Shown here in pieces: positions 16,991 through 60,680 of a stretch of 64,000 nucleotides of DNA. The DNA is taken from the NCBI GenBank assembly GCA_030426345.1, contig JAUHYU010000011.1:1-64000 (forward strand), given 5' to 3'. Below the pieces are notes generated by a model. That model did not search any database. It saw only the letters and a list, made by a program, of their open reading frames with translations, and was not told the DNA's origin. Made by a program: the position numbers and the translations under genes. Numbering within the stretch: the stretch's first letter is position 1; every line of letters starts with the position of its first letter. The stretch is from Bacteroidia bacterium. Its GTDB lineage: Bacteria; Bacteroidota; Bacteroidia; Cytophagales; Cyclobacteriaceae.

Positions 16991-18841
16991 ATGGATTCTA
17001 CAGTAGTAAATGAGCATATTGATCACGCCGTAGAGGATCATGCCCATGAGCATCATGGTAATTTTATAACTAACTATATTTTTTCTACGGATCATAAGAT
17101 CATTGCCAAACAATACTTAATAACTGGTATTTTTTGGGCGATTATAGGAGGCGGGATGTCCATGATATTCCGACTTCAATTGGGCTTCCCCGAAGCAACT
17201 ATGGAATGGCTACGACCATTGTTGGGCGACTGGATCACATCGACAGGCAAGCTAGATCCAGAATTTTATCTTGCTTTGGTGACAATGCATGGAACAATCA
17301 TGGTATTTTTTGTACTTACTGCTGGCTTGAGTGGAACATTTAGTAATTACCTGATCCCGTTACAAATAGGTGCACGAGACATGGCTTCAGGCTTTATGAA
17401 CATGCTGTCTTATTGGTTCTTTTTCGTTTCCAGTGTTGTAATGTTTATTTCTATATTTATCGAAACCGGACCTGCTTCTGGAGGATGGGTTATCTATCCG
17501 CCTTTGAGTGCTTTGCCTCAAGCGATATCAGGATCAGGGTTAGGTATGACTTTATGGTTGGTTTCTATAGCATTATTTATTGTTTCTACTTTATTAGGAG
17601 GTATAAACTACATCACGACTATAATTAACCTAAGGACCAAAGGAATGTCGTTTACGAAACTTCCACTGACCATATGGTCATTTTTCTTTACCGCAACCAT
17701 AGGTTTACTTTCATTCCCTGTGCTTTTAGGAGCGGCTTTGTTGCTGATATTTGATCGTAGTTTTGGCACGAGTTTCTATTTATCAGAAATATATATCGCA
17801 GGAGAAGCACTTCCTAACATGGGAGGAAGCCCGATATTGTTTCAGCATTTGTTCTGGTTTTTGGGACATCCAGAAGTATATATTGTAATTATGCCGGCCT
17901 TTGGGATTACATCAGAAATTATTTCTACCAATAGCCGTAAGCCTATTTTTGGTTATAAAGCTATGATCATTTCACTACTAGGGATTACCGTACTCTCGTT
18001 TGTTGTATGGGCGCATCACATGTTTGTGAGTGGGATGAACCCCTTTCTTGGGTCAATATTTATGTTGTTAACATTAATCATTGCGATTCCATCTGCGGTG
18101 AAGGTGTTTAATTATTTGACTACCTTATGGAAGGGGAATATTATATTTACACCGGCTATGTTGTTTTCTATAGGTTTGGTTTCCTTCTTTATTTCAGGAG
18201 GACTTACTGGGCTTTTTGTGGGTAATTCGGCTGTCGATATCCAATTGCACGATACCTATTTTATCGTTGCTCACTTCCATTTAGTGATGGGAAGTGCTGC
18301 ATTTTTTGGTATGATTGCAGGGGTTTATCATTGGTTCCCGAAAATGTTTGGTAGGATGATGGACAATAAATTGGGCTACATACATTTCTGGCTTTCCTTT
18401 GTAGGGATATACATGGTGTTTTTTCCAATGCATTATATAGGCATTGCTGGATTTCCGAGAAGGTACTATTCATTCACAAACTTTGATGCGTTCAGTACTT
18501 TTGTGGATTTGAATGCTTTTGTAAGTATTGCTGCCCTTATTACTTTTGCTGCACAATTTATATTCCTTTTTAACTTCTTTTATAGCATCTATAGAGGCAA
18601 GAAAGCCCCTGAAAATCCATGGAATTCCAATACATTGGAGTGGACAACACCTCGAAACCCAGGTCATGGTAACTGGCCTGGTGAGATTCCTACTGTCTAT
18701 CGTTGGCCATATGATTATAGTAAACCTGGTGCCAAAGAGGATTTTATTCCTCAGAATATTCCATTTTCAAAAACACCTGAGTCAAATTTGCCACATGAAG
18801 TAAAAGAAATTGAAAAGGAGAAAGCTGTAGAAAAGGCGTAA
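16991..18841 (+). CDS. coxA: cytochrome c oxidase subunit I (A-type heme-copper oxidase)
   Basis: The catalytic subunit, 616 residues and about twelve helices, reduces O2 at the heme a3/CuB site. Diagnostic stretches are TMHGTIMVFFV (low-spin heme His), GHPEVYIVIMPAFG (CuB His, the His-Tyr crosslink and the A1-type glutamate of the D channel), VWAHHMF (CuB His pair) and VAHFHLVMG (heme a and a3 His). The N-terminal 30 residues are His-rich (HIDHAVEDHAHEHHGN). It starts 26 nt after coxB. The enzyme belongs to the proton-pumping A family. Confidence 0.95.
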   Translation: MDSTVVNEHIDHAVEDHAHEHHGNFITNYIFSTDHKIIAKQYLITGIFWAIIGGGMSMIFRLQLGFPEATMEWLRPLLGDWITSTGKLDPEFYLALVTMHGTIMVFFVLTAGLSGTFSNYLIPLQIGARDMASGFMNMLSYWFFFVSSVVMFISIFIETGPASGGWVIYPPLSALPQAISGSGLGMTLWLVSIALFIVSTLLGGINYITTIINLRTKGMSFTKLPLTIWSFFFTATIGLLSFPVLLGAALLLIFDRSFGTSFYLSEIYIAGEALPNMGGSPILFQHLFWFLGHPEVYIVIMPAFGITSEIISTNSRKPIFGYKAMIISLLGITVLSFVVWAHHMFVSGMNPFLGSIFMLLTLIIAIPSAVKVFNYLTTLWKGNIIFTPAMLFSIGLVSFFISGGLTGLFVGNSAVDIQLHDTYFIVAHFHLVMGSAAFFGMIAGVYHWFPKMFGRMMDNKLGYIHFWLSFVGIYMVFFPMHYIGIAGFPRRYYSFTNFDAFSTFVDLNAFVSIAALITFAAQFIFLFNFFYSIYRGKKAPENPWNSNTLEWTTPRNPGHGNWPGEIPTVYRWPYDYSKPGAKEDFIPQNIPFSKTPESNLPHEVKEIEKEKAVEKA

Positions 18842-18895
18842 TGCACCCTATGAGAAAACAATTGCATTTAAAAAATAAAATAGTAGCAAGCTGAT

Positions 18896-19792
18896 ATGAT
18901 CGAATCTACCGGTAAACTGGATTTTTCTTCTTTTATGGCTATGAAGCTAAAATGCTACTATGAACTCTTGAAAGTACGGCTCAGTTTTCTTGTAGCATTT
19001 TCATCAGGGTTTGGATATATACTTGGTCATCAAGGCGCATTGAATTGGGGTAATTTCATTCTTTTTTGTTTTGGTGGGTTTCTCGTAAGTGGAGGGGGGA
19101 TTACGATCAATCAAATTTTGGAAAAGGAATTCGACAAAGTAATGAAACGCACCATGGGGAGGCCTTTGCCGACCAATAGAGTAAGTAAACAGGAAGCGTC
19201 GATTTATGCAGTATTATTGTTGATAATTGGGTTTTCTTTAATATTGATTACTGCAAACCTATTGACTTTTTTAATTTCTGCATTTTCATTGGTAATGTAT
19301 AGCTTTGTGTATACCCCGTTAAAAAGGGTAGGCCCCATCGCTGTTTTTGTTGGGGCTATTCCGGGAGCACTTCCTCCTTTATTAGGCTGGGTAGCAGTGA
19401 CAGGGCATATTTCATATGAGGCAATAATAATTTTTGGGATTCAGTTTATTTGGCAGTTTCCTCACTTTTGGGCTATCGCATGGGTGGCAGATGAAGATTA
19501 CAAAAAGGCTGGTTTTAAGTTACTCCCTGCGAATGGTAAAAAGGATTTGCGTACCGCCATCAATATCATGATTTATACATTGTTTTTACTTCCATTGGGC
19601 TTATTGCCTGCTAAGTTTGGTGTGGCAGGGATTAATTCTGCCATCGTAGCTACAGTTTGCGGTGTGTTGTTCTTGGCACAAACATTTGGCTTGATGCGCG
19701 ATAATTCAAGAAAATCGGCATTAAAAATAATGTACGGATCTTTTTTGTATTTGCCCATAGTACAAATAGCTTATCTTGTTGATAAAATATAA
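18896..19792 (+). CDS. ctaB: protoheme IX farnesyltransferase (heme O synthase)
   Basis: A 298-residue UbiA-family prenyltransferase that converts heme B to heme O for the oxidase. The prenyl-diphosphate-binding region NQILEKEFDKVMKRT (a UbiA Asp-rich motif variant), GAIPGALPPLLGW and FPHFWAIAWVADEDYKKAG are characteristic. There are eight to nine membrane helices. Its stop codon overlaps the ATG of the next gene by one base. No ctaA (heme A synthase) is seen in the window, so it must lie elsewhere if heme A is made. Confidence 0.92.
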   Translation: MIESTGKLDFSSFMAMKLKCYYELLKVRLSFLVAFSSGFGYILGHQGALNWGNFILFCFGGFLVSGGGITINQILEKEFDKVMKRTMGRPLPTNRVSKQEASIYAVLLLIIGFSLILITANLLTFLISAFSLVMYSFVYTPLKRVGPIAVFVGAIPGALPPLLGWVAVTGHISYEAIIIFGIQFIWQFPHFWAIAWVADEDYKKAGFKLLPANGKKDLRTAINIMIYTLFLLPLGLLPAKFGVAGINSAIVATVCGVLFLAQTFGLMRDNSRKSALKIMYGSFLYLPIVQIAYLVDKI

Positions 19793-20376: not shown

Positions 20377-20391
20377 TAAAAATTAACCTAT

Positions 20392-21138: not shown

Positions 21139-21149
21139 ATTGAATTGAT

Positions 21150-21482
21150 ATGGCATTATTAGAAGAAATATCAAACGTTAAGGTCGTACCGGTTGATAAA
21201 TCAGCCACCAACAAGCTTTGGAAAATCGCAGGTGTTTTGTTGGTTATTACGATTATTGAATTCCTTTTTGCGTTTCTACTTCCAGAACATTGGAAATGGA
21301 TGAAAATATCAATCTTTATAGGATTGACATTCGTGAAAGCATTTTATATTGTATCAGAGTTTATGCACCTGAAACATGAAAAGAAAGCACTGATGTGGTC
21401 TATAGTGTTGCCATTGATCTTTGTGGTCTGGTTGACCATTGCGCTTATAGATGAAGGCGGAGCAATATTATTTGCACGATAA
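21150..21482 (+). CDS. cytochrome c oxidase subunit IV-like protein
   Basis: A 110-residue protein with three hydrophobic helices and the family-like segment VKAFYIVSEFMHLKHEKK before the last helix, as in prokaryotic cytochrome c oxidase subunit IV (COX4_pro) proteins. It is the last gene before the operon terminator. It probably assists assembly or stability of the oxidase. Confidence 0.85.
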   Translation: MALLEEISNVKVVPVDKSATNKLWKIAGVLLVITIIEFLFAFLLPEHWKWMKISIFIGLTFVKAFYIVSEFMHLKHEKKALMWSIVLPLIFVVWLTIALIDEGGAILFAR

Positions 21483-22180: not shown

Positions 22181-22717
22181 ATGGACAAAGGCAAAAATAT
22201 ATTCAAACGGCTGTTTATCATCATTTCGTTGTTGGTTCCAGCTATCGTTGCAGTATTGATATTTCTACCAAAGGGTGACCCAAATCATGTGAGTCCATGG
22301 ATTTTTTCCTTGCCCATGTATAACGCTGTTATTAATAGCCTTACGGCTATTTTATTGATTTTAGGAGTTTGTTTTGTAAAAAGAAAGAAGGTTGAAAACC
22401 ATAAACTATGCATGATCAGCGCTTTTATATTAGGGTGTATTTTTTTATTGGGATATGTTATTTACCACTCTAATGCCCCTGCTACAAAATTTGGAGGCGA
22501 AGGCTTAGTCCGTTATGTATACTTCTTCCTGTTAATAAGCCACATTTTATTGGCATTCATAGTAGTTCCGTTGGTGTTGTCGGCAATTTATTTTGGGGTA
22601 ACTTTAAATATTGAAAGGCATAAAAAAATCGTAAAATATACATTTCCTGTATGGTTATATGTATCTATTACTGGTGTTGTCGTTTATCTTATGATAAGTC
22701 CTTATTATGTACATTGA
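22181..22717 (+). CDS. DUF420 membrane protein (CtaM-like oxidase assembly factor)
   Basis: A 178-residue protein with four to five membrane helices. DUF420 members include Bacillus/Staphylococcus CtaM (YozB), needed for heme-copper oxidase maturation. The family-like pattern is visible: early NPK-type loop, YHSN, and HILLAFIVVPLVL with its conserved His. It starts 1 nt after the SCO-like gene and its stop overlaps the region just before the next start, so the three genes form a tight assembly cassette. The CtaM role is inference from family and location. Confidence 0.8.
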   Translation: MDKGKNIFKRLFIIISLLVPAIVAVLIFLPKGDPNHVSPWIFSLPMYNAVINSLTAILLILGVCFVKRKKVENHKLCMISAFILGCIFLLGYVIYHSNAPATKFGGEGLVRYVYFFLLISHILLAFIVVPLVLSAIYFGVTLNIERHKKIVKYTFPVWLYVSITGVVVYLMISPYYVH

Positions 22718-23142: not shown

Positions 23143-26100
23143 GTGAATACCGGACGATATGGCAAGTACATATTTCTCTGGCTTTCCATTGGTTTTCTTC
23201 TTGTCGCAGTTGCCTATAAGTATTTTTTAGTAACGATAAAAAATACGGATCAGCAGAATGCACTACTGATTTCGGCAAAACTGGAAAAGGAGGTGAAAAC
23301 CATTGAGGGCTCCATGGCAGATATTATGTCTGCCATCCGGACTTCTGACGGCTTATCTTTTCGGTCATTATACCGAAATACAACATATCCTTATAGTATT
23401 TTTTCTAATAAGCGATTGGTTTTTTGGTCAGATAATCTCTATACTCCCAAATATAGGGATGTGATCGGGGACTTCCACTATGCCTATGTTGTGACGGCCA
23501 AGGGAAAGTTTATTGCAGTAAAAGGGTCTGTTTCCCATGAAACAATGACTTATGAAATCGTATTCCAAATTCCTTTGGAGGAGTATTCTGCAGTGGTCAA
23601 TGCGTATCTAAAAAACACCTACAACAAAAAGTTATTTACAGATTCGAATTTTGAATTGACTGAAGTTGATCAAACTGAGAACTACCAACAGGTAACACTG
23701 CAAGGCCAAAATTTGTTTTCTGTAAAATTTGGCACTACTTACTCAAATACTGATGCGAATTCTAAGGTTGTTTTACTCGCACTTATTATTTGTTGCTTCG
23801 GCTTTTTGGGTGCTTTTGTACAAGGACAATTACAGCATTTTAGGGGCAAACAAAAGTTTGGTCATGGATTTTTATTCCTTTTTTGCATCATAGTTATTGT
23901 AAGGGGTTTAATGCTGCTCATAGGTTTTCCTCTCAATTTTGTTCAAGTTGATTTGTTTGATCCGAAGCACTATGCATCCTCCCTTGTCAATCCTTCTTTA
24001 GGGGACTTGCTGCTCAATGTGCTTTCTCTGCTGGTTCTCGGGTATTATTTATTTGTCAATTTCTTTAGGCTGAACTTTGTGAGGCGGTTGTTGTACGCTG
24101 GCAAGAGACCTCAATTTGTGGCTGCTTGCACTTTCCTGTTTTTTAGTTTTTTTTGGCTAGCAGTGCATCACCAGGCCATGAAGACTTTAAACTTCGACTC
24201 GCAATGGTCGATGGACATCACACAAAATCTTGAGTTTGATTATCTGAGGGGGATTGGGTTTTTGATTTATTTTATCAGTGTAGTTGTCTATTTTTTATTC
24301 GCACATGTGTGTTTCAGAATGTACATACAATTGATACCTCGCAACACGAAAAAGCATGTTTTTTCCATGATTATCGCAATAGCGTCTTTTAGTCTGCTGA
24401 CATTCTTGTTGCGATGGGATTTTGTCATGGTCATAGTGGTCAATGCAAGTTTTTTTCTTGGAATATATTATTTTAGTCTCCCCAAATTCATTGGCAGATT
24501 TCATTATCTGACTTTCATTTATCTGTTTTCTTTTGGCCTTCCCGGTGCTATTGTTGGGTTATACGCCAATTACCAGTATGGGTTAAATAAAGCGAATTTC
24601 AATAAATCAAGGTTGGCCAATCAGCTATTGGTAGAGAGCAATTTTTTCACTGAAATGCAGTTGGCTGATGTGGCAAAAAAGATAAAAGATGATTTTTTTA
24701 TTCAAAAGAGAATATTCAGTCCTTATGCCTCTAAACAGATTATTGAGAAGAAGATACGTCTGGAATATCTGAATAACCTGAATAAGTTTGATATAAAGAT
24801 TTATGTTTTTAATTCGAGGGGCGAACCTTTTGAGCATTTTAATATTAAGGACAACTACCATGATTTTAAGGCGAGGTTAAAGGAATACAAAACTGACACA
24901 GAAGGGCTTTATTTTATCAACCAGACTCATGGTCAGGCTGCTGTCCGCTACATGGATTTTATTGAGATTGAGGATCGGGATCACGTGATTGGCTATGTGC
25001 TGCTGGATTTAACGCAAAAAAGACGGGTGCCAAATTCTGTATTTCCACTTTTGCAAAATGAGAATCTCTACGCTTCGCAAATCGAAGGAACAGACGAATA
25101 CAGCTATGGTGTATTCCAAAACGGAGAGTTGCAATATAATTATGGCGAGTTCAATTACCTCAAAAATCAAGATGATTTTAGTACAAAGGCCGATCGATTG
25201 TTTGATTATAGTGTACGTATCCAGGGTTTCAATCACAAAGGGTTTCGCGGAGAGGGTAATAAGTTTGTAATCGTTTCGGATAAATTACCGACTGCTGAAG
25301 CCTGGTTTGCGAACTTTAGCTTCCTGTTTTTGGTATTCATTTTTTCTATGTTGTTTGTGCGCATAGTCATTACTGTTTATCAGGGATTCAGGCAGGTTAA
25401 ATTAAACTATGCTACGAAGATTCAGTTGTACTTGAATTTTGCTTTTTTTACCCCACTAATAATCGTAAGTGTCACAACTGTAAGTATCATCATTCAAACA
25501 TTCAAAACTTCGCTGGAAGATCAATATCTGGAGTATGCGGATAACTTGAGTGCAGAATTTTCAAAACCTTTGGGCGATTACAGAAATTTGAAGATTGAAA
25601 AGGAAGACTTGTCTGATATTATTTTTCAGGTGGCAGAAATCGCAGATATGGATGTCAATGTTTATAATATCAACGGCAGGTTGTTGGCGTCTAGTTTATA
25701 CCAGATTTATCAAAATGAGATTTTGTCGGGCAACATCGAGCCCAATGCCTTTATTAAAATTGTGGAAGACCAGGAATCCTCTTTTGTGCAAGAAGAGCAG
25801 GTTGGGTTGTTGCATTATAAAAGCGTGTATGTAGGCATTCGATCGTATGACACAGGAGCGATCATTGGCATATTGAGTTTGCCATTTTTTGCATCTCAGC
25901 AAGATTTAGAACGCAATATTGTGGAAGTGCTGTCCAATATTATCAATATTTTTACTTTTGTTTTTATCATATTTCTAATAGTCTCATTTTTTGTTTCCAG
26001 AGGACTTACTTTTCCACTCCGATTGATTACACAAAAAATCAAGAGAACTACCTTGTCGGCATATAACGAGCCATTGAGCTGGAACTCTGATGATGAACTT

Positions 26101-26930: not shown

Positions 26931-26961
26931 CGTATTGTATAGCTTGGATATTTTGTATTTG

Positions 26962-29900
26962 ATGTTGCGGCTTTTGGGGTGTGTATGTTGTTTGTTACCT
27001 GCATTGGGCTTTGGTCAATCAGCCGGCGAATCGTGCAAATATATAATGGCATCACGATCAGAAGTTGCATTGGATTCTTTGTCCGTGATTCCGGGAAGTA
27101 TTTACATCAAGTCGAATGAGAATGTGGATTATCACTATGACCTAAACACTGGGTTAATATATTTTGATGTACTCCAGCCCATGGATTCTGTCCTCATTTG
27201 CTTTCAGACAATTCCTTTTCCTCTTCATAAAACCTATCAGCGCAAAAGCCTGGCAGAGTACCAAGCTCAGATAACACCATCAGTTCAATATCAAAAGAAA
27301 GTACCTAGTATTATTGATCGAAAGGAAGAGCTTTTCCCAACGGACAACCTTCAAAAAAGTGGTAGTTTGAGCCGAGGGATTTCTTTCGGTAATACACAAA
27401 ATGTGGTAGTAAACTCTGCCTTGAATCTACAGCTGGAAGGTAAATTAGGTGATGATCTCAATATCCGTGCTTCGATTACTGACCAGAACGTACCATTTCA
27501 GCCGGAAGGAAATACGGCACAAATCCAGGATTTTGACAATATTTTTCTGGAGTTGTACAATGATAATTTTTCGCTGAAAGGAGGTGATGTGGTATTTAAA
27601 AATAAAAACTCAGAATTTTTGAGGTATCACAAAAACGTGCAAGGCGGATTGCTTAATACTCGCTATAAAATGGGTTCAAAATCCATGGCAGAGACCTCTC
27701 TCGGAGTTAGTGTGGCCAAGGGTAAATTCGCCTCCATTGACCTGCAAGTGGAAGAAGGAGTTGCCGGCCCATATCGTATCAAGATTCCCAATACCAACGA
27801 TTTTATTATCATCTTGGCCAATTCTGAAAGTGTGTTTCTGGATGGGAAAAAGCTGCAAAGGGGATTTAATTTTGACTATATCATCGATTATAATAAAGCT
27901 GAAATCCAGTTTACGAGTAAGGTTTTAATCACTAAATATTCCAGGGTCAGAATTGATGTGGAATACTCTGACCAAAACTACAGTAGGAGCATTATTACAG
28001 GCAGTCAATATCAGCAAATGGGAAAGGCGAGCTTTTCATTTAATTATTATTCGGAAAAAGACAATCCCAATAAACCGCTAACGATTGGACTTAATTCGGA
28101 TGATAGGTCGTTGATGAAGTCTATTGGAGATGATTTGGACAAAGCGGTGAAAGTAAGTGCACAAAGGACTCCATACAATGTAGATGAGGTGCTGTACAAA
28201 TTGGTAGATACGCTAGATAACGCTCTGAATTTCATTCAGGTTTTTAGGTATTCGGCGAACCCGGAAGATTCACTTTACAGAGTGTCATTTAGTGAAGTAG
28301 GAGATGAGAAAGGTGATTACATTTTGACCAACAGTACGACGAATGGAAGAATCTACGCATGGGTGTCACCGGTAAATGAAGTGCCACAAGGTAACTATGC
28401 ACCCTTGGTCAGAATCCCTGCACCAAATAGAAAGGATATGGTGACACTCGGTGGGGAGGTGGAATTATCGAAATATGAGAAGGTATTTACGGAAGTGGCA
28501 TTTTCTAAAAATAACCTGAATCTATTCTCCGGTTTGGACTCTGAGGATGATAATGGTTTTGCAGTAAAAAGTGGTCTAAAATCCATGAATCGACCTGTTA
28601 GCTTCTTGAAGGATTATCTTTTTTCGGCGTTTACTAACTATGAGTTTGACAATGCTTTTTTCAATCCGATTGACAGATATAGGTATGTAGAATTTGACAG
28701 GGATTGGAACTATGATGTTGAAAGCAAAGACCAATCTGCAGACCATATTTTGCAAGTTGAGATGGGTGTGAAAAAGGATGCACTTAACATGCTCGGATAT
28801 AAAATGGTGAAAAGGAAGCGCGCAGACTATGTAGATGGAATACAGCATTATTTTGATTTTGCACAAGGGATAGGGCCATTTCAGATTGTCTCTGATGCTT
28901 TTATTTTGAGAAATACTACCAACACATTTCATTCGAAATGGGAAAGACTGAATGCACAGATTGCTTATAAATCCAAGGTTTTTGTTCCGGGATATAAGTT
29001 TTCTATTGATGAAAATGAAATGCGGGCATTGGATTCTGATTCTATTATCAGTTCGGCTATGAATTTTCGTGAGCACAAGTTTTTTATAAATAGTAATGAT
29101 TCGCTTGCAACGAAATTTGGACTCTCATACAGTTTGAGGGAAGATAAGCGTCCAATAACCGGGGAATTGAAAAACTCAGATCAATCGGAGACTACTCAGT
29201 TTTTTATCAATTCCTCCCTCAATCCAAACCAAAAGTTGAACTTCCTTTTAACCTATCGAAACAATACCAACTATCAGGTGGCCGATGAGCCGAAACGAGA
29301 GGAGACTTTGATGGTACGCACAGATTGGTACGCAGGATTTTTAAATCGGCACATCAGATCGGATCTGACGTATTCCATTGGTAGCGGTAGAGAATTAAAG
29401 AGGGAGTTTGTTTATGTACAGGTGCCGACAGGAGAGGGGACACATACTTGGCGAGATGATAATGGTAACGGGATTCAGGAATTGAATGAGTTTTACATCG
29501 CCATCAACCCTGATGAGAAAAACTATATCAAAATATTCGTACCTACCAATGACTACATTTTCGCTTATGAAAATAATTTTAATTATAGGCTCAATTTAGA
29601 AATGCCCAGAAATTGGAAAAAGTCTGATGGAATCAAAAAGATGCTTTCCCGATTTTCCGGAACAGCATCTTGGAATAGTATTAAGCGAATAACTGCCACT
29701 GATCTTGCATCCAGAATATTGCCTTTTTATGCTAAAATACCAGAGTCCGAAATTTTATCCCTAAAGGAGACTATTCGAAGTAGGATTTTTTATAACCGGG
29801 CTAGCCCTGGGCTGGGCATGGATTTTGGATACTTTCAATCTGCCAATAAGCAGTTAATGTCCCAAGGGTTTGAATCCAGAAATAGGTCTGAGTATTCTGC

Positions 29901-30408
29901 CAATGCCAGATTGAATTTAAGTAAAAGCCACTCAATGAAACTACTTTATCTTTGGGGAACTTCCGGTAGCAAATCTGATTTTTTGCAAGGTAGGAATTTC
30001 GGGATATATAGATATAAAATTGTGCCGGAACTGGCTTGGCAGCCCGGCACCAACCTGCGGTTGTCTTTGATGTATGGATACTCTGACAAAGTAAATCGTG
30101 AAAGTGATATGACAGAAGAGGCAAAAATCCATGAAATAACAGGCAACCTAAAGGTCAGCAAAGCTGCTGACCTTTCATTAGATGCGAATTTGAAACTGAG
30201 CGAAATTCAATATTCCGGCGAAACCAACACTTCAGTTGCCTATGAGATGTTGGAGGCACTTCAGCCTGGCAGAAATTATACGTGGAATTTAATAATTCAG
30301 AAAAAAATTCTCATGGGTCTGCAACTCTCTATGAGCTACGAAGGGAGAAAATCATCAAATATCCAAGCTATCCATATTGGAAGGATGCAAGTGAACGCTC
30401 TTTTTTGA
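26962..30408 (+). CDS. large outer-membrane protein with SprA-like motifs
   Basis: About 1148 residues. A signal peptide (hydrophobic core LLGCVCCLLPALGF, cleavage before Gln) is followed by a periplasmic-looking N-terminal region and then many alternating beta strands with aromatic ends, as expected of a large barrel. Residues around 145-220 (SRGISFGNTQN, NLQLEGKLGDDLNIRASITD, then DFDNIFLELY and GGDVVFK) resemble a conserved segment of the gliding/T9SS translocon protein SprA, but the protein is about half SprA's length, so it is a relative or a partial analogue rather than SprA. A short variable Asp/Asn turn (DDNGNGIQELNEF) lies near 830. It converges on the manC-like gene with only 7 nt between stops. 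Confidence 0.7.
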   Translation: MLRLLGCVCCLLPALGFGQSAGESCKYIMASRSEVALDSLSVIPGSIYIKSNENVDYHYDLNTGLIYFDVLQPMDSVLICFQTIPFPLHKTYQRKSLAEYQAQITPSVQYQKKVPSIIDRKEELFPTDNLQKSGSLSRGISFGNTQNVVVNSALNLQLEGKLGDDLNIRASITDQNVPFQPEGNTAQIQDFDNIFLELYNDNFSLKGGDVVFKNKNSEFLRYHKNVQGGLLNTRYKMGSKSMAETSLGVSVAKGKFASIDLQVEEGVAGPYRIKIPNTNDFIIILANSESVFLDGKKLQRGFNFDYIIDYNKAEIQFTSKVLITKYSRVRIDVEYSDQNYSRSIITGSQYQQMGKASFSFNYYSEKDNPNKPLTIGLNSDDRSLMKSIGDDLDKAVKVSAQRTPYNVDEVLYKLVDTLDNALNFIQVFRYSANPEDSLYRVSFSEVGDEKGDYILTNSTTNGRIYAWVSPVNEVPQGNYAPLVRIPAPNRKDMVTLGGEVELSKYEKVFTEVAFSKNNLNLFSGLDSEDDNGFAVKSGLKSMNRPVSFLKDYLFSAFTNYEFDNAFFNPIDRYRYVEFDRDWNYDVESKDQSADHILQVEMGVKKDALNMLGYKMVKRKRADYVDGIQHYFDFAQGIGPFQIVSDAFILRNTTNTFHSKWERLNAQIAYKSKVFVPGYKFSIDENEMRALDSDSIISSAMNFREHKFFINSNDSLATKFGLSYSLREDKRPITGELKNSDQSETTQFFINSSLNPNQKLNFLLTYRNNTNYQVADEPKREETLMVRTDWYAGFLNRHIRSDLTYSIGSGRELKREFVYVQVPTGEGTHTWRDDNGNGIQELNEFYIAINPDEKNYIKIFVPTNDYIFAYENNFNYRLNLEMPRNWKKSDGIKKMLSRFSGTASWNSIKRITATDLASRILPFYAKIPESEILSLKETIRSRIFYNRASPGLGMDFGYFQSANKQLMSQGFESRNRSEYSANARLNLSKSHSMKLLYLWGTSGSKSDFLQGRNFGIYRYKIVPELAWQPGTNLRLSLMYGYSDKVNRESDMTEEAKIHEITGNLKVSKAADLSLDANLKLSEIQYSGETNTSVAYEMLEALQPGRNYTWNLIIQKKILMGLQLSMSYEGRKSSNIQAIHIGRMQVNALF

Positions 30409-41166: not shown

Positions 41167-42012
41167 TTATTGAAAGTCAAGATATAAAATCAACTTTTTA
41201 AAGTTACGCTTATCTACTGATTTAAAATCAGCTAGTACTTTTTCTGATTCAATCGTTTTGTTTATTTCCCGAAATCTAATAATATCTTCCGCCAAATTTT
41301 TCGAAATGTAAGGATGGCTGAGAAGTTTCTCCTTTTCGACATGATTTATACGAATTTTGTTAGGGATGAATTTTTTTTGAATATACGTGTGATCTAGCAG
41401 AGATTGAATTGAAGTGTCGGTAATGCCATAGACTTCATGGAGTTGATCCGCAGTTACAAAACCTCCGAGTGATTCGCGAAACTTTACGATTCTATTGGCA
41501 AATATATCCCCGATACCCGGTGTTAATTTTAGTTGTGAAGCACTCGCTCGGTTAAGGTCTAATTTTACTTTTTTATTATTTCTATAAGTGCTGCTATCAG
41601 GCAAAAGAATATACGGAAAGGCCTTTTGAACCCATTCGTCTTGAATTCCATAGATTTTACGTACATCTTTTTTTGTATAGAACTTGCCTCCTTTCGTTCT
41701 GTAATTGATCCATGTTATCGCTGTTTTTTTTGGAACGCCAAGAAGTATCAAACTATCCATGGAAATTTTGTTAGGATCAAAGTCAAATAAAGGCATGGAT
41801 TTAGGAGCCTTTTTTATAGATAAAACTGCCGACAGGCTATCGAGGTATTGCACGTCTGAAGCATCCAACTCGGGATTGTGTCGATTGATATATTTTGGCA
41901 AAAACAGAAATACTAGGGCAATTGTAGAAATTAAAAACAGGCCAAAGAAACCTTTTGATTCATTGTAAGAAAGGGAAAGAATTCGTTGAATTAGTAGATA
42001 TACGTGCTTCAA
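41167..42012 (-). CDS. membrane-anchored triple helix-hairpin-helix protein (ComEA-like)
   Basis: A 281-residue protein with one N-terminal membrane helix (about 22-40) and three helix-hairpin-helix modules. The middle one is canonical ComEA type (LNRASASQLKLTPGIGDIFANRIVKFRE); the first (LGVPKKTAITWINYR) and third (PYISKNLAEDIIRFRE) are degenerate. The C-terminus faces the periplasm if the anchor is N-in. ComEA binds incoming double-stranded DNA during natural transformation, but the three-module form is widespread in Bacteroidetes and its role is untested. A near match to the over-represented decamer lies just upstream (42049-42058). Confidence 0.8.
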   Translation of the reverse strand: MKHVYLLIQRILSLSYNESKGFFGLFLISTIALVFLFLPKYINRHNPELDASDVQYLDSLSAVLSIKKAPKSMPLFDFDPNKISMDSLILLGVPKKTAITWINYRTKGGKFYTKKDVRKIYGIQDEWVQKAFPYILLPDSSTYRNNKKVKLDLNRASASQLKLTPGIGDIFANRIVKFRESLGGFVTADQLHEVYGITDTSIQSLLDHTYIQKKFIPNKIRINHVEKEKLLSHPYISKNLAEDIIRFREINKTIESEKVLADFKSVDKRNFKKLILYLDFQ

Positions 42013-43394: not shown

Positions 43395-43629
43395 TCGAAT
43401 AAAAATTAAAGTTTAAATTAATCTAGCTGTGCAAAGGATAGTAAAATAAATATCTGATGGTGAAAATACCAATCACAAAAAAGTACTTAACGATAAATTA
43501 ATTTTTGCGGCAGAATTTTATAATCCGTTTGGCTTTGTTAAAAAACGATGCAAAAATAATTAATTAAATTCTCAAAAGTAAGGATGCGATTTTCTAATTC
43601 TCTTTTAATGGATCCATGGATTTTGAGAG
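43395..43629. other. intergenic region between pfp and the FG-GAP gene
   Basis: 235 nt of A/T-rich DNA carrying the pfp promoter region. One CAAAAATA (43551-43558, a minus-strand TAnnTTTG) is present but lacks a correctly spaced -33 element. A copy of the over-represented decamer (43615-43624, minus strand) is at the downstream end. Confidence 0.4.
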
Positions 43630-45849: not shown

Positions 45850-45962
45850 ATGTGTTTTTAAAAAATTACCCCAGACCATGCCGATTGTGATGGAAACAAT
45901 TTAACTTCGTCCTTAGATTGATAACGATCAAAAAGTAAACGATTTTTTTTGAAAAAGTGTCT

Positions 45963-47243
45963 ATGATCGAAAAAATATATTCCATTTTTCTTGAAAGCAC
46001 GGGTATTTGCACCGATACCAGAAAGGTTGAACCGGGCAATCTATTTATTGCACTTAACGGGCCAAATTTTAATGCGAATAAATTTGCTGCGCAGGCTATA
46101 GAAAAAGGGGCAATTGCAGCCGTAATTGATGACGATACTTTTGCCATTCCGGATAAAACCATAACTGTGGCAGATGGCCTTGAAGCACTTCAAAAGCTTG
46201 CCAAATTCCATAGATCGGAATTGAATATTCCGATAATTGGCATTACTGGATCGAATGGGAAAACTACAACTAAGGAACTTACCCATGCGGTACTTGCAAC
46301 TCATTTTGAGATTTTTGCAACGCATGGAAATTTGAATAATCACATTGGCGTGCCGCTCAGTTTACTTTCTATAAAGGAAAATCATGAGATCGCGATCATC
46401 GAAATGGGTGCCAACCATGTGGGGGAAATCGCCTTTCTGGCTTCCATCGCCCAGCCTACTCACGGGCTGATCACAAATATCGGCAAGGCGCATACTGGTC
46501 TGTTTGGTGGGTATGAAGGTGTGATTCGAGCAAAAAGTGAATTGTATGATTTTCTGATCAAAAATGATGGAACTATTTTCATCAATCAAAATCAGGAAGT
46601 ATTGATGAATATGCGCAAGCGCATCAAAAATGCAGTGCTCTACCCCAATGCTGACGGGAATTTCCATTGTTCTTTTATATCAGCAGACCCATTTGTTGCT
46701 TTGAAAACTCGTAACAGAGAATTGGTGCAGACTAGCCTGATTGGAGCTTACAACTTTGACAATATCGCCACAGCGCTCTGTGTGGGAGATTTTTTTGGAG
46801 TGCCACAAGCTAAGGCAAATGCTGCCGTAGCCAATTACCATCCCGAAAATAATCGCTCTCAAATTGTCAATAAAGGGAGTAATACGATCATTTTAGATGC
46901 ATACAATGCCAATCCGTCTTCGATGGAAAAAGCTTTGGAAAACCTCGCTCAGATGCAGGCCCAGAAGAAAGTGGCCATCGTGGGCGATATGTTTGAACTC
47001 GGCGACGATACTGAAGCTGAACACGCAAGGGTAGGGGAACTTGTTAATAATTTGGGAATAGACGAAGCGATATTCTGTGGAAAATCCATGAAATTGGCAT
47101 ACGAAACTTGTGGGAAAGGCAGTTATAAAAGTTCGAAAGAAACATTGATCAATTACTTAAAAACCAATTCGTTTGAGAATTCCACTATTTTGATCAAGGC
47201 TTCGCGCGGCATGGCGTTGGAGGATGTAGTGGAATATTTGTAA
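45963..47243 (+). CDS. murF: UDP-N-acetylmuramoyl-tripeptide-D-alanyl-D-alanine ligase
   Basis: A 426-residue Mur ligase that adds D-Ala-D-Ala to the UDP-MurNAc-tripeptide in the cytoplasm. DTRKVEPGNLFIAL at the N-terminus, the ATP loop GITGSNGKTTTKEL (about 92-105), IIEMGANHVGEIA and DAYNANPSSME are the family signatures. The GTG two codons earlier is possible, but the ATG at 45963 gives the usual start. It is divergent from the FG-GAP gene and not in a dcw cluster here. Confidence 0.93.
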   Translation: MIEKIYSIFLESTGICTDTRKVEPGNLFIALNGPNFNANKFAAQAIEKGAIAAVIDDDTFAIPDKTITVADGLEALQKLAKFHRSELNIPIIGITGSNGKTTTKELTHAVLATHFEIFATHGNLNNHIGVPLSLLSIKENHEIAIIEMGANHVGEIAFLASIAQPTHGLITNIGKAHTGLFGGYEGVIRAKSELYDFLIKNDGTIFINQNQEVLMNMRKRIKNAVLYPNADGNFHCSFISADPFVALKTRNRELVQTSLIGAYNFDNIATALCVGDFFGVPQAKANAAVANYHPENNRSQIVNKGSNTIILDAYNANPSSMEKALENLAQMQAQKKVAIVGDMFELGDDTEAEHARVGELVNNLGIDEAIFCGKSMKLAYETCGKGSYKSSKETLINYLKTNSFENSTILIKASRGMALEDVVEYL

Positions 47244-47312: not shown

Positions 47313-48449
47313 TTGAAAACACAAGTTTTAAAATATTCGGTTATGTTCATGTTGTTTTGGGTGGTGATCCCTGCACAAGCCCAATACAAAATATTGGAAG
47401 ACAAAGGTGCGTTGGACCAGGTACATCAAGCGATCGACAGCATCTATAACCTCAACTTTGATGCGGCAGATCCAATAATTGCGAAACTAGAAAAAAAGTT
47501 GCCTGACTATCCGGGACTGGTTTTGCTTAAGGCATTTTATACTAATTGGAAATATCAGCCGATCAAAAAAGGGCGGGCAGCCTATGGTCGTTTCGAAGCA
47601 TATCTGCAAAAAGGGATTGAGCAGAGTGAAGCCATGCTGGATAAAGATGCCAACAACGTGGAGGCCACTTTCTTTTTGATGGCCTGCCATGCTTATCTAG
47701 CACAACTTTATGTCAACAACGGACAAAATATGAAAGCTCTTGGTGAGGCAAAATATGCTTATAAGTATATCAAGGAAGGGTTTGATTACACAGATGTCAA
47801 TCCGGAATTTTACTTTTCGAGCGGTATTTATAATTATTATCGAGAACGGTACCCAGAAGAAAACCCATTTTACAAATCATTCTTATGGTTCTTTCGAAGT
47901 GGCGATATGACTGAAGGAATCCGTATGCTACAGCGAGGGTCACATGAGGCGGTTTTTACCCAGGCAGAGTGCTTGACATATCTCTTTCATATATTCTTGA
48001 GGTATGAGAATGAACCAGAAGATGCCATGTATTACGCCCGGATCCTAAAGAACAAATACCCAGATAATTTGCACTTTACGGCTAATTACATAGAAAACAT
48101 GATGCGGCTCAATAGTATTGGTGATGCGCTACCCGACATCCTGCTGCTGATAGATAGCGACAAGGAATATGATCAATACCTCGGCAATATATATTATGGC
48201 ATTTATCTGTTAGATCATGAAAAAAAGCCCCAAAAATCCATGGAATACCTTAAGCGCGCAGACCAACTCGGCGATCGGGATGGCACCCACGATGCGCACC
48301 ACGACAGCATGTTATATCTCGGAATGGGAAAGGGGTTTAAGGAAATGGGGAAAAGGGAATTGGCAATGGAAAACATTAAAAAATCCATAAAATCTGCTGA
48401 GTACAGCGCATATCGCATGGATGCAGAAGCCCTATTGAGTACTTTTTAA
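47313..48449 (+). CDS. exported TPR-like protein of unknown function
   Basis: A 378-residue protein with a signal peptide (KYSVMFMLFWVVIPAQAQ) starting from a TTG; a later ATG would shorten the n-region. The mature part is almost all helical, with TPR-like repeats (IAKLEKKLPDYPGLVLLKAFY, AYLQKGIEQSEAMLDKDANNVEATFFLMACHAYLAQLY, and others). It sits 70 nt after murF. I do not recognise a specific function; a periplasmic scaffolding role is plausible. Confidence 0.7.
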   Translation: MKTQVLKYSVMFMLFWVVIPAQAQYKILEDKGALDQVHQAIDSIYNLNFDAADPIIAKLEKKLPDYPGLVLLKAFYTNWKYQPIKKGRAAYGRFEAYLQKGIEQSEAMLDKDANNVEATFFLMACHAYLAQLYVNNGQNMKALGEAKYAYKYIKEGFDYTDVNPEFYFSSGIYNYYRERYPEENPFYKSFLWFFRSGDMTEGIRMLQRGSHEAVFTQAECLTYLFHIFLRYENEPEDAMYYARILKNKYPDNLHFTANYIENMMRLNSIGDALPDILLLIDSDKEYDQYLGNIYYGIYLLDHEKKPQKSMEYLKRADQLGDRDGTHDAHHDSMLYLGMGKGFKEMGKRELAMENIKKSIKSAEYSAYRMDAEALLSTF

Positions 48450-50770: not shown

Positions 50771-50793
50771 AAAAAAGCTTCTAAAATCCATGA
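50771..50793 (+). repeat. left 22-nt direct repeat flanking the DUF4238 gene
   Basis: AAAAAAGCTTCTAAAATCC plus ATG, differing at one base from the copy at 52211-52233 in the same orientation. It contains the over-represented decamer and looks like one arm of the terminator hairpin at 59649-59697. Confidence 0.7.
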
Positions 50794-51997: not shown

Positions 51998-52523
51998 AAG
52001 GCAATTACCACCTACAATTGCATAGAGCACATTTGTGCCCATTATCCAATATATGACATGCGCATTTTGAGTTAAAAATAGCCCTTTTCGGTAGTAATCC
52101 AATAGATGTCGATGAGGAGTCGAGGTTGGATTAAAGAGTCTATCCGAAGTAATCTTGCAATTGATCATTGGCTGAATCTCTTTGAGCGAAAGACTTGGTT
52201 TTTTTGGATAAAAAAAGCCTCTAAAATCCATGGAATGGCCGGAAAAAAATCAATAATATGAGTATTAAATACTTGTTAATAACATAGATTATTTTGCATT
52301 TTATTATTCCTTATGATTACTTTTTTTTCATATTTTATTGATTAATATAATTTTGAAATAAAAAAGTATAATTTATTTTATATATTCGGCGCCATAAGAG
52401 ACAGCCTTTCCTAGTAACTTTTTTAGAGAAATTTGCCAAAATTAATTGATGGTTGACGCCATTCGTTTTGCTTTTTTCTGATACTCTTTATAATTCACTG
52501 CATTTACTTTTAAATAGTTTTTT
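51998..52523. other. 526-nt intergenic region upstream of DUF4238 and the giant T9SS gene
   Basis: It holds the right direct repeat (52211-52233) and, from about 52250, a very A/T-rich tract. A lone TAATTTTG (52348-52355) resembles a -7 element but has no -33 partner at proper distance. The open minus-strand extension of the DUF4238 frame covers 51998-52231. No RNA gene seen. Confidence 0.4.
52211..52233 (+). repeat. right 22-nt direct repeat flanking the DUF4238 gene
   Basis: AAAAAAGCCTCTAAAATCC plus ATGG, same orientation as 50771-50793. The same GCCTCTAAAATCCATG string forms the left arm of the terminator at 59649. Confidence 0.7.
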
Positions 52524-58500: not shown

Positions 58501-59612
58501 ATATTGCTAAAGGAGAAAAGTTGGGCTATCGCATTAACTTTGAAAATCTAGCTGAAGCCAATGCCAATGCCCAGCGTGTAGCTGTAGAAAATGAACTGCA
58601 ACCCGAATTGGACGAAAGGAGCTTTAGGCTTAAAGAAGTAGGTTGGGGAGATACGATCATTCAATTGCCAGAAGCTGCTTATTTTACTGGAACATTTGAT
58701 TTGGGAGATAAATATAGCAACAACCAGCTTCAGCTCACAGCTGGGATTGATGCTGTAAATTGGCGTGTATTTTGGAGATTCCAAACTATAGATCCTTCTA
58801 CAGGCGCTCCTCCGTCAGAATTTGATGGTGGATTTTTGCCACCAAACGATTCTACAGGAATTGGCGAAGGGTATGTGTCGTACACGATCAAAGCTAAAAA
58901 CGGATTGTCTGGCGGCACGGAAGTGACCAACGATGCTGTCATAGTGTTTGATCAGGAAAAAAGTTTGCGCACTAACTTATGGTCAAACATGATTTTAGGA
59001 GAAGGAGGCGTAGATAGCCATGTCAACGAATTGAATAATGTGATGATGGAAACTAGGTTTGTAGTATCATGGCAACCTGGAGGTGTGGACAATAGTTTCC
59101 AACCTGATATTATGGACTATACCGTTTTCGTATCCAAAGACAACGGACAATATTTTATATGGCAACTGAATACGCCCGAAAAAGAGGCCGTTTTTGTCGG
59201 TGAGCCAGGGAGTACTTATGAGTTTTACAGCATTGCACGAACTGCCAGTGGAGCTACTGAATCCATTCCTGCCTTTGCGGACGCGATGACCCTCGTTAGT
59301 GATGAAGCCAGGGTGACTGGCATTGATGACAATGATGTTTTGGGTCGATTGAAACGACAAAATATGGCCATCTATCCCAACCCATCACAGGGAGAATTAA
59401 CGATCGCTTACAAGCAGCAAAATAAAGAAAGACTTCGCTTGTCGATTATATCCATTTCTGGGCGGCAGATTTACGAGGAGGTGATCAATAACGATATACC
59501 AGGAACTTATTTTAAATCAATACTCAATCTGCAATCTATAAGTAATGGCATTTATTTTATAAAAATTGAAGGAGCAGACTACTCCAATACTCAGAAGTGG
59601 ATCAAAAAGTAG
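52524..59612 (+). CDS. giant multidomain T9SS-exported surface protein with CARDB repeats
   Basis: 2362 residues. Signal peptide (1-24, cleavage before Gln25), a right-handed beta-helix/pectin-lyase-like domain (about 30-450), then about eight tandem CARDB-type adhesion domains (about 457-1450; each begins DLxVxNxxxP or similar and has a VxNxGxxxT core plus YLSxD), a mixed-beta region (about 1480-1830), a DPNEIIGPEG/YRINFEN module (about 1980-2150) common in large surface proteins, a fibronectin-like segment, and a C-terminal T9SS type A sorting domain (IYPNPSQGELTI to ISNGIYFIKI). It should be a surface adhesin or enzyme scaffold. No clear catalytic motif was seen. It is unusually long but shows no stop or frameshift. 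Confidence 0.88.
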   Translation: MNSHRLASIALSIMLFFAMSTVNAQMSGNYTIATDGSGDFTTLNAAIAKLQNDGMGADVTLQLKPGIYNEKVRIGAIAGNSLAKQVIIESLSGNREDVTITYTTNDEDSSNYLIRLDDVKGASIRNITFDTQGAKSYYGRVIELIGITSNVTIEGNHFIGNRNSSAIVFGLGAGDFFEHYINPDSIRNLTVNHNLFNLFSPAVDSEMSFTMDVFHENLSISHNQFIDCNGINLANVKGLYFGNNLSKKVEYKIKPLVLSNCKGEILVEKNIAYTTTDGFSFFATHGTKDSPVIVRNNFVSGDKIVLAISGISNFNIAHNTFIGTSTGSSLMALYGVDSSAMYNNIFYNKKSDQALLTFDKMGNVDMDYNCYYAPDGTLADNYDITINTLEEMRTVLGIEAHGMNINPIFVSDTTYQVLAADLTDAGIPLPYITDDIEGDPRADGLPDIGVDESTAVSNLIINEVTTATPTVNIDGNLSITWKGENIGETTFSTEWKDHVYLSKDTQLDEDDVFLGSKINNDVLAPGDLFSHSKVFLVDLDNPGDYYVLVKLDVDEVLIEDKNDNIEIGPKVTVIFANRPNLEVTNISMPANINSGSVVTVEWTVTNNGDEATTENWFDYIYFSSDKDLLEDHENFDPEQEFLVKLENTVGLAPGESYTNSHQFKLPLSGSGKYYIKVVVDLENSQNELDESLPNNSTISLPISISQAPLSDLKVTSFTFPETAFSGEWIDFSYTVKNIGTAKTSYDLWTDYVYVITDSIPNRNSFKSAWKTRQEIKNWKEMEVAEELVIHEKIKLPYCESDTFYVFLLTDVYNQIEESVESNNTTIANQPIIVVYKPSADMVVERIHVPDQPRATDQLTTIEYDIYNRGFDVANIFNNLHDAIYLSKDQEFDIKEDLKLAGGWFFDTLSLAVDDKITRQISITWPDSLFGDYYVVVNTDDLDQICEAPYEGNNAFFSEKISIELAPVKDLTIKNLRVETSGIAGERMAIKYNLHNNGVGIVSGKVLVDSIYLVPENGQPNKKYSHWGKQHEDLTLSSNSSVLEEMLLSIPITTPPGRYQLVIIADAKKMIYEHEAENNNLVKSPTITITRDEDKLPDLAIQNVALPQEILSGTTASISFDISNLSPAETNTDAWKYRLSLLNEMDKKLGNENYLHIGKLDGNSTYTENFDFKIPDGISGSYRLVIHADINYKVAEYYKENNADTIDIEIALSPWPDLVVQNLNFPATMIAGQEATISWEVKNAGQVPTKAEILSDKIYVSKDEVLDEHDILLHSVVYDNTLAKGAVLSQNPVFRILPELDGNYYLIVMTDASNQEYEHTGEENNVFHSIDEVTITKPKPIDLEPVVSSIDFSLSSGVVQFGVRNNGPNTGHGSWVDAAFLSTDPLWDKDDVLMGYRKYSASNSGLESGGAYNFTIKNQSGFVKPDYYYVIIKSDVYNYMPETNKGNNYQASKDPVYIDMLAELIPGEAKDSVYYLNRNRSHYYKMKTKTDKGYLLTIDGKNSNNSTELFYKTADLPSRGGDFDFKGANDRQETQQIIVPSKDQATTDYILAYGDYVFGETMDYTLLAEEKEFSIVNITPEVGGNEGIVVMDINGFDFTDSLRAVLRNATDTVEAVHSFSISNILARAHFNTNSIDTGTYDVVLQRLDRGDKTVYEQAFQVQDTSYTEYHMNVTGPDRVIQGRDFLSQVHFSNLGNINDYDLFVMIAISAKNHGPQDFKVDYLGDGVSDQLPEELQALHPFSNEALFQDDKAYYFYTWLPVFAARSSGQFTFKLNMAEIDTINISAQIFANPISDIHFSGDLDDLKKTRFLKDIDASFTGGNNASSNARVTADCIDDPKAVEAMVWKSVRSHVEYVSGGIPGSPTQVVTTLVQEGLKSMVDVEAHDRAEGLVKDLTDERREITLDPTQKSAYDNLLKNLDNCLTPELVEEIVDKCLVAHREEVLRADGRKSYRTVYTNTCPYASPGGTSKGVAVVSSHDPNEIIGPEGIGEPRYIAKGEKLGYRINFENLAEANANAQRVAVENELQPELDERSFRLKEVGWGDTIIQLPEAAYFTGTFDLGDKYSNNQLQLTAGIDAVNWRVFWRFQTIDPSTGAPPSEFDGGFLPPNDSTGIGEGYVSYTIKAKNGLSGGTEVTNDAVIVFDQEKSLRTNLWSNMILGEGGVDSHVNELNNVMMETRFVVSWQPGGVDNSFQPDIMDYTVFVSKDNGQYFIWQLNTPEKEAVFVGEPGSTYEFYSIARTASGATESIPAFADAMTLVSDEARVTGIDDNDVLGRLKRQNMAIYPNPSQGELTIAYKQQNKERLRLSIISISGRQIYEEVINNDIPGTYFKSILNLQSISNGIYFIKIEGADYSNTQKWIKK

Positions 59613-59648
59613 GTGAATCTTTCTTGAGTTTTTACTTTTATTCATACA

Positions 59649-59697
59649 AAAAAGCCTCTAAAATCCATGAAACTACCATGAATTTTAGAGGCTTTTT
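59649..59697. terminator. strong hairpin terminator built from the over-represented motif
   Basis: Two 21-nt arms (59649-59669 and 59677-59697) with one C-A mismatch and a 7-nt loop, A-tract before and T-tract after. It ends the giant gene and would work in either direction. Each arm contains GCCTCTAAAATCCATG or its near complement. Confidence 0.88.
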
Positions 59698-59762
59698 CTA
59701 AGTGAAGGAACTAAAAAGTGTTGCAACAAAAATTTCCTAAATAAAGCCAAGCAGAAAACATC

Positions 59763-60680
59763 TCAGTAAAATCCATGGAAAAAGAGGGCATTTTTTGCAT
59801 TGCTTCGCAGTCAAAGGCGATAACCTCTACTGCGGTCATGATGTTCTGGGAGGAAGGAAAATTCAGATTGGACGACCCGATCTCGAAGTATATTCCTGAA
59901 TTTAAAAATCCACAAGTGCTGAAGTCATTTAAGTATGCGGACACGAGCTACTCAACTGTCGCCGCTGACAATGAAATTACCATTCGGCAACTGCTCTCCC
60001 ACACTTCCAGAATTGGCTATGCAGACATTGACGGTGATGAGCAGATGCGCATGATTTATTAGAAGGTGGGAATAGTGACAGGGTTTTCAGATGAGAATAT
60101 AACTATAGGTGAAAAAATCAAGAAGCTTGCAAAGCTACCGCTGCACCATAATCCGGAGAAAAATATACCTATAGCCTAGGACTTGATGTGTTGGGATATC
60201 TGGTGGAAGGTGTTTATGGAATGCCCTTCGACAAGTTTTTGAAACAAAGCATTTTTGCCCCTCTGGGCATGGAAGATACCTTCTTTTATTTGCCAAAATC
60301 TAAGGCTGACCGACTCGTATCTGTGCAAGAAATGAAAGAAGGAAAATGGGTGAAATACTCGGAAACTTTTTATGACCCAAAATATCCTATCGAAGGAGCA
60401 AAGTCTTATTTTTCTGGTGGGGCAGGATTGTCGAGCGCAGCCAAGAATTACGCCACATTTCTTCAAATGTACCTGAATCTTGGTAAGCTGAATGGCTATC
60501 GTCTGCTGAGCCGAACTACCGTACAGGTGATCTTTTTGGTGGAGAGGTTATTTTGATACCCAGTTTTTTGCCGATCCCAAGGAGCATATTGGTGTGATCA
60601 TGAAGCAAACTGGTGATCCCGTCAATGACAACACCAGATGGAAATTCAAACAGTTGGTTGGTCAGGCAGTTGATTATTGA
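59763..60680 (+). pseudogene. decayed beta-lactamase-family serine hydrolase
   Basis: The remnant reads ...KSMEKEGIFCIASQSKAIT (SxxK nucleophile motif SQSK) ...LRQ-type LLSHTSRIGY..., then PFDKFLKQSIFAPLGMEDTFFYLP, SYFSGGAGLSS and FFADPKEH. At least four lesions: the first 60 or so residues and signal peptide are missing; a TAG stop (60060-60062) interrupts the frame; a one-base loss near 60153 shifts it (restored reading GEKYTYSLGLDVLGYL); and an internal deletion near 60540 joins GDLFGG directly to YFDTQFF. The 5' break is at a copy of the AAAATCCATG decamer. Confidence 0.85.

Follow-up and report, generated by a model that had tools for sequence, protein, structure and literature searches.

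A hyper-abundant decamer with phased A/T tracts is a candidate DNA uptake sequence in a genus of Cyclobacteriaceae (Bacteroidota)

The window analysed here is a stretch of 64,000 nucleotides from Bacteroidia bacterium (Bacteroidota; Cytophagales; Cyclobacteriaceae; assembly GCA_030426345.1, contig JAUHYU010000011.1, positions 1 to 64,000), in which an earlier note, made from the sequence alone, had pointed to the decamer AAAATCCATG as a candidate DNA-uptake or chromosome-architecture sequence. We examined this decamer in the window, in the genome that the window comes from (labelled G000) and in relatives (labelled with other G numbers), and the patterns found suggest that it probably forms the central part of a DNA uptake sequence, read by a Bacteroidota competence machine that works without a pilus. 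The motif is presented as a candidate uptake sequence. The uptake reading is supported by the genome-wide excess of the motif, its presence in all reading frames, its enrichment in intergenic DNA, the inverted pairs forming a terminator, the lack of replication polarity, the lack of excess alignment gaps, a dialect in a sister species, its scarcity in genes with low G+C content at third codon positions (GC3) and the presence of genes for ComEA-like, ComEC and DprA proteins. The chromosome-architecture reading is the weaker of the two, because the core differs within the genus and the extended site is present in only 0-4 copies in 383 family genomes outside it.

All 15 exact copies reported for the window were recovered with the same positions and strands. 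In 100 dinucleotide shuffles of the window, the decamer occurred 0.62 times on average and four times at most, no shuffle reaching 15, while an order-3 Markov model predicts 0.83 copies; the chance figure given earlier, 0.2 per 64 kb, was somewhat low, and the conclusion on the excess is unaffected by this. Across the 5,115,568 bp and 182 contigs of G000, 712 + 762 = 1,474 copies were detected, against 5 + 9 = 14 for the reversed, non-complemented control pattern, so the genome-wide count, which the earlier note had proposed as a check, is not near expectation. The third-order Markov comparison that it had likewise proposed was made on a 399,744-bp sample of G000, in which AAAATCCATG ranks first of the 10-mers by order-3 z-score, with 122 copies observed against 6.0 (order 3) or 23.4 (order 5) expected.

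The decamer is the central element of a longer site, AAAAAGC-n4-AAAATCCATG[GA]A. Among the 122 exact copies of the sample, the upstream consensus at -11 to -5 from the decamer is A(0.58)A(0.75)A(0.89)A(0.88)A(0.69)G(0.63)C(0.58), the decamer is followed by [A/G]A, and a faint A/T-rich patch lies at -22 to -19. The 54 coding copies keep the upstream tract (A 0.65-0.85 at -10 to -7), so it is not due to terminators alone. An iterated weight-matrix search, at a cut-off that lets in about one chance hit among every nine sites, identified 1,170 sites in 794,188 bp of G000 against about 136 in order-3 Markov random sequence; the matrices, here and in the relatives, were trained on real sequence and then set against random sequence, which favours the former, most where sites are few. 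The resulting site spans about 23 bp and comprises an A-tract (-16 to -12, counted from the CCATG core), a short spacer, an A/T-tract (-5 to -1) and CCATG[G/A], with CCAT as the least variable bases (0.95-0.99), followed by G (0.77), and with the centres of the two A/T tracts about 11 bp apart, about one helical turn. Its consensus is asymmetric, not a palindrome, and it occurs about 1.3 to 1.5 times per kb in the G000 sample, on both strands and in coding and intergenic DNA. Sites also combine with each other: 106 inverted pairs all overlap at one fixed offset, their exact form being the 16-bp palindrome AAAATCCATGGATTTT (85 in G000, using 170 of the 1,474 decamer copies as overlapping pairs), and 26 direct pairs are spaced by exactly 11 bp, so the AAAA of one copy can double as the A-tract of the next.

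With gene calls that were home-made throughout, coding DNA of the G000 sample contained 1.16 sites per kb and intergenic DNA 2.86, and 798 of the 1,170 sites lay inside genes, in every phase and on both strands. In 610 coding sequences, 667 sites were counted, against 157 after a synonymous-codon shuffle and 40 after a codon-order shuffle, an excess of about fourfold over the synonymous shuffle in which each of the six phases is enriched (382 sense and 285 antisense sites). The shuffled-codon and frame checks thus show an excess in all six phases alongside the greater intergenic density, and, as the earlier note had argued, a single protein motif cannot account for the copies. In the window itself, the copies within open reading frames (ORFs) fall in several coding frames, as ENPW, PWI, HGF, MDF, KSM and KIH. 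Of the exact decamers that fall within complete genes of the sample, 72 are in sense and 25 in antisense orientation, and known uptake sequences are also described as favouring one orientation in reading frames (PMC2346458). Site density rises with GC3, from 0.41 sites/kb in the lowest tenth of genes to 1.61 in the highest (Spearman 0.34, P 6e-16, 548 genes), a trend opposite to the compositional expectation for an AT-rich motif.

Alignments of sites with congeners, made at 61-74% identity and in some cases rough, contained a gap within the 23-bp site in 25 of 178 cases, compared with 47 of 276 control windows. Since gaps are no commoner at sites than at controls, this fits an origin by substitution rather than by insertion, and origin by point substitution is a criterion for uptake sequences. 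Similarity of its cytochrome oxidase places the window in Cytophagales. The extended pattern AAAAN6AAAATCCATG was found 728 times in G000 and once in reversed form; it has 54 copies in G002, 44 in G004, 37 in G003, 16 in G005, 10 in G006 and 4 in G001, and 0-4 in the remaining 383 of the 390 family genomes searched. A core-free search, which considers every 5-mer that has AAAA at a constant spacing, ranked CCATG first in G000 (z 39.5) and, with the inner tract, in G002 (z 7.4), while in G004 it returned CTCAT/TCATG (z 11.5 and 11.0), where AAAA stands at the same place as in G000, 15 bp upstream. Weight-matrix searches found 156 sites in 84 kb of G004 against 15 in random sequence, and 74 against 7 in G002 and 39 against 3 in G003, the last two runs having been seeded with CCAT(G). 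When the G000 matrix was applied to smaller samples of relatives, it reached a usable threshold in G002 and none in G003, G004, G001 and G006. The G004 pattern AAAATNNNNNNTTTYTCATR has 649 copies (control 1) and at most 12 per genome in 58 other genomes, with 4 in G000. Because the architecture is shared and the core differs (CCATG in one, TCAT[GA] in the other), we regard the G004 form as a dialect. The conservation in sister species that had been proposed for checking therefore extends to the same core in G002 and weakly in G003, to a variant core in G004 and, by pattern count, to G005.

These differences among congeners bear on the possibility that the motif is bound by an abundant protein of the nucleoid or of chromosome organisation, which would read phased A-tracts together with CCATG. 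Phased A/T tracts bend DNA, and tracts about 11 bp apart, in both orientations, in coding and intergenic DNA and without replication polarity, would suit such a protein. A structural site should, however, be conserved, whereas the core and its abundance differ sharply within the genus, the other 383 family genomes searched contain only 0-4 copies each of the extended site, and site density drops in low-GC3 genes, which would offer A-tract binders more sites. We consider this explanation unlikely, though the strongest of the rivals.

Cyanobacterial HIP1 (GCGATCGC) resembles the motif in being a very abundant short repeat, and a methylation- or repair-linked iterated sequence of this type would fit hyper-abundance in both coding and intergenic DNA. 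HIP1, which has been linked to orphan methyltransferases (as described in PMC4390886), is, however, a plain palindromic octamer, whereas the G000 motif is asymmetric, with an upstream A-tract, phased tracts and dialects. A HIP1-type origin is quite improbable for this motif and fits the CTATAG-centred 9-mer of Pontibacter, described below, better.

A Chi-like or KOPS-like recombination, segregation or replication signal would be compatible with one copy per few kb, also in coding DNA. Signals of this type are short polar octamers, whereas the site described here is long, with phased flanks and palindromic pairs. Moreover, the strand of the motif is independent of GC skew (272:289 and 128:137), while the gene strand does track it (223:113 kb in positive-skew DNA), so the strand-skew test that had been suggested, carried out here via GC skew, detects no replication-strand bias. 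Such a signal is very unlikely, and a strand-polar replication or recombination signal as the sole cause is rejected on the absent GC-skew polarity.

Intergenic site clusters shun gene 5' ends (0.21 within 60 bp, against 0.48 of controls). The idea that the sites multiplied by descent, as intrinsic terminators of the ordinary kind, as regulatory sites or as a small mobile element, is scarcely credible: intergenic copies can make terminator stems (59649-59697), the folds of intergenic clusters are somewhat more stable than those of other intergenic DNA (-15.9 vs -13.2 kcal/mol) and the 16-bp palindrome recurs 85 times, but most sites are genic, in all phases and on both strands, the clusters are no closer to gene 3' ends than control points (0.42 vs 0.41 within 60 bp), the flanks of 20 palindromes are dissimilar beyond the site itself, alignments with relatives have no excess gaps and no Rfam family was detected in the window. 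As sole causes, terminators are refuted by the genic sites and the lack of a 3'-end preference, a mobile element by the gap counts and the unlike palindrome flanks, and a known RNA family by the Rfam result.

Returning to the uptake reading, the window encodes on its minus strand (41167..42012) a ComEA-like protein of 281 aa, with an N-terminal hydrophobic segment (by eye) and three helix-hairpin-helix repeats. The protein matches Pfam HHH_3 in three stretches (3.5e-33) and passes the NCBIfam ComEA repeat profile TIGR00426 (57.1 bits, cut-off 53.1), while its score for the full-length comEA profile TIGR01259, 65.6 bits, is under the cut-off of 152.35. It is a candidate periplasmic DNA-binding component. 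ComEC was found in 10 of 10 genomes and DprA in 6 of 6. The best DprA match in G006, a congener with little motif excess, consists of two overlapping pieces (G006:C65:3169-3776), one with an internal TAG, which may reflect decay or an assembly error.

As most features of known uptake sequences are matched, regular spacing being an exception, we read the motif as an uptake sequence working like the uptake signal sequence (USS) of Pasteurellaceae. Inverted copies of the DNA uptake sequence (DUS) of Neisseriaceae serve as terminators, one likeness to the motif. The USS, for example AAGTGCGGT of Haemophilus influenzae, is described as having, like the motif, about one site per kb, a short core accompanied by two A/T segments at intervals of roughly one helical turn, some close opposite pairs, no significant bias in orientation and subclade-specific cores (PMC1626085). 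The motif differs from it in belonging to another phylum and in its unrelated core CCATG, random spacing and lack of an associated pilus-type ATPase over the cut-off. The DUS shares with the motif hyper-abundant repeats on the scale of a 10-mer and dialects that keep a small shared core (as set out in PMC3630211). Like the USS, it has about one copy per kb, no significant orientation bias and some close opposite pairs; in the same account both are spaced somewhat more regularly than random, and the DUS is given without flanking tracts (PMC1626085). The DUS is described as being bound by the pilin ComP, whereas the receptor of the motif is only postulated.

A closer taxonomic parallel is Riemerella anatipestifer, a member of Bacteroidota. 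According to PMC8459023, it transforms although no pilus homologues were detected in it, and the factors that it requires include ComEC, DprA, ComF, RecA and a helix-hairpin-helix protein. The window genus likewise belongs to Bacteroidota and carries ComEC, DprA and, in the window, a helix-hairpin-helix protein. Riemerella columbina is described as favouring its own DNA, with the A-rich 10-mers AAAAATAAAA and AAAAAGAAAA listed as putative uptake sequences (PMC7965970). The two cases differ in that the Riemerella motifs are given there as putative only and that DUF5689, which forms part of one Riemerella transformation factor, was absent from the 10 genomes searched here. In the open-access literature, to the extent that its text was available to the search, no Bacteroidota uptake sequence was reported beyond these putative A-rich words of PMC7965970.

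On this basis, we propose that a surface or outer-membrane receptor of a natural-transformation machine would bind CCATG and use the helically phased A/T tracts to bend the DNA for double-strand entry, after which ComEA-like, ComEC and DprA proteins would carry the DNA inward. Incoming alleles with better sites would recombine more often, and the site would accumulate as a molecular drive; a change in receptor specificity could then move the entire genome over to another dialect, making DNA exchange species-specific. Because no ATPase of the type IV pilus or type II secretion type scored over the cut-off, we propose that the receptor would be part of a machine without a pilus, like the one postulated for Riemerella.

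Several observations weigh against an uptake sequence. The profile PF00437 (PilB/PilT-type ATPase) was over the cut-off of 24.9 bits in none of the six genus genomes, with partial matches of 19-22 bits in three of them and a control over the cut-off in 13 of 14 cases; pilins, PilQ and the prepilin peptidase were not searched for. Uptake in Neisseria and Haemophilus is described as using type IV pili (PMC7965970). ComEC was also found in relatives with the extended site at background level or close to it (G001, G007, G070, G072 and G006), as was DprA in G001, so the presence of these genes is not specific to motif carriers. Site spacing is Poisson-like (mean 792 bp, CV, the coefficient of variation, 0.99) and not more regular than random; regularity is a frequent trait of uptake sequences, whereas what defines them is that cells preferentially take up DNA carrying the motif. 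Depletion in foreign DNA is a criterion for uptake sequences, and the signs on it are mixed: low-GC3 genes carry few sites, but codon typicality, a marker of foreign genes, trends weakly in the direction opposite to GC3 (rho -0.12), and the two longest site-free gaps contain no phage or mobile genes among their 10 proteins searched against Pfam, which are ordinary ones (fatty-acid desaturase, glycosyltransferase, ECF/FecR/TonB receptor and similar). Among the relatives, the core-free search placed CCATG only weakly and second in G003 (z 5.8), behind the unrelated ATATG (5.9), and returned no dialect in G001 (95 kb) or G006 (44 kb). Finally, G000 is a draft genome in 182 contigs, and the contigs sampled from G000, G002, G003 and G004 were partly selected for carrying known hits, so sampled densities are biased upward; the whole-genome pattern counts are free of this selection.

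A second case comes from Pontibacter. Named loci of at least 12 kb, among 80, were scanned for other hyper-abundant k-mers, and the scan picked two genomes of this genus, Pontibacter sp. Tf4 (L065) and Pontibacter chinhatensis LP51 (L067). The 9-mer GCTATAGTT has 2,985 copies in Tf4 (control 47), 67 in P. chinhatensis LP51 (control 41) and 2-66 in 11 other genomes. The 9-mer TTTATACTT has 4,309 copies in P. chinhatensis (control 32) and 348 in Tf4 (control 54), where it is enriched yet twelve times less, while in 11 other genomes its 13-362 copies are close to or under their own controls. At both loci, the 9-mers occur on either strand and in genic and intergenic DNA. As they lack the phased A-tract, they represent a parallel case, not the same site. 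Pontibacter is the second genus with a candidate uptake sequence, here in named strains. In the other named loci the offset test was silent, but it is weak on 20-kb pieces: those of G000 itself gave z 6.0-8.2, while shuffled sequence reached up to 6.8.

Taking the two lineages together, namely the window genus (A-tract with CCATG or TCAT[GA] cores) and Pontibacter (TTTATACTT and GCTATAGTT in different species), we lean, by a small degree, towards the view that Bacteroidota have their own pilus-independent, sequence-specific DNA import, which would have arisen in at least two Cytophagales lineages, with species-private dialects of hundreds to thousands of copies, and in which a fast-evolving outer-membrane receptor would isolate species. 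Motif-directed uptake is documented, in the published descriptions available to us, in two proteobacterial families with type IV pili. If the proposal is true, motif-directed uptake would have evolved independently in Bacteroidota, the motif would provide a handle for finding the Bacteroidota DNA receptor, which is expected to co-vary with dialect, and genetic isolation among environmental species could be read from genomes. The Pontibacter case makes the uptake reading testable in named strains.

Within the window, where 38 main ORFs were picked from the 55 listed, 10 of the 15 exact copies lie within an ORF, 6 in sense and 4 in antisense orientation, and 5 are not contained. The sense copies, all on the plus strand, are located at 18612..18621 in the cytochrome oxidase subunit I ORF 16991-18841 (E-N-P-W-N), where a degenerate minus-strand site (core coordinate 18623) overlaps the copy; at 27678..27687 (S-K-S-M-A), 28578..28587 (L-K-S-M-N) and 30124..30133 (K-I-H-E-I) in ORF 26935-30408; at 47081..47090 in the Mur-ligase ORF 45957-47243 (G-K-S-M-K); and at 48233..48242 in ORF 47313-48449 (Q-K-S-M-E). 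The antisense copies, all on the minus strand, are at 22296..22305 in the DUF420 ORF 22181-22717, at 23863..23872 and 24951..24960 in the histidine-kinase ORF 23143-26862, and at 29817..29826 in ORF 26935-30408, whose own strand reads G-M-D-F-G there. Two intergenic copies lie at 43615..43624 (minus strand), between the minus-strand ORFs 42159-43394 and 43630-45879, and at 50783..50792 (plus strand), with an A-tract upstream. The plus-strand extended site AAAAAGCCTCTAAAATCCATGGA at 52212..52234 (decamer 52223-52232) overlaps the 5' end of the minus-strand ORF 50903-52231, and its weight-matrix score of 31.5 is the window maximum, jointly with the copy at 59660. The first 18.6 kb is free of exact copies, as the earlier note said, but 17 of the window's 73 weight-matrix sites fall there, at a cut-off with roughly one chance site in nine.

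The terminator hairpin of inverted copies described earlier, at 59649..59697 downstream of ORF 52524-59612, is borne out by folding, with -25.2 kcal/mol for 59640-59705; it contains the exact plus-strand copy 59660-59669 and further sites with core coordinates 59671, 59676 and 59682. The ORF that this motif-built terminator follows encodes a protein of 2,362 aa with a type IX secretion sorting tail. The last exact copy, at 59768..59777 (plus strand), is intergenic and is overlapped by a minus-strand site (core coordinate 59779). Elsewhere in the window, positions 8814-21138 hold an ordinary respiratory cluster of Fe-S/NrfD proteins followed by cytochrome oxidase subunits, the former resembling alternative complex III.

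Other repeats were also noticed. The G000 sample contains a second, weaker over-represented palindrome, GTCGCGAC, with 14 copies against 1.6 expected in 400 kb. The palindrome CAAGCTTG, possibly another repeat, occurs six times in about 20 kb (0.3 expected) in L051 and a 20-kb piece of G004. In L092, a locus of a Chitinophagaceae metagenome-assembled genome, the 7-bp direct repeat TTTTGAA/TTTTGAC forms short arrays at 1340-1361, 4603-4610, 6152-6166, 6813-6834 and 8799-8820; the ten listed hits share one strand, and some stand directly before an ATG.

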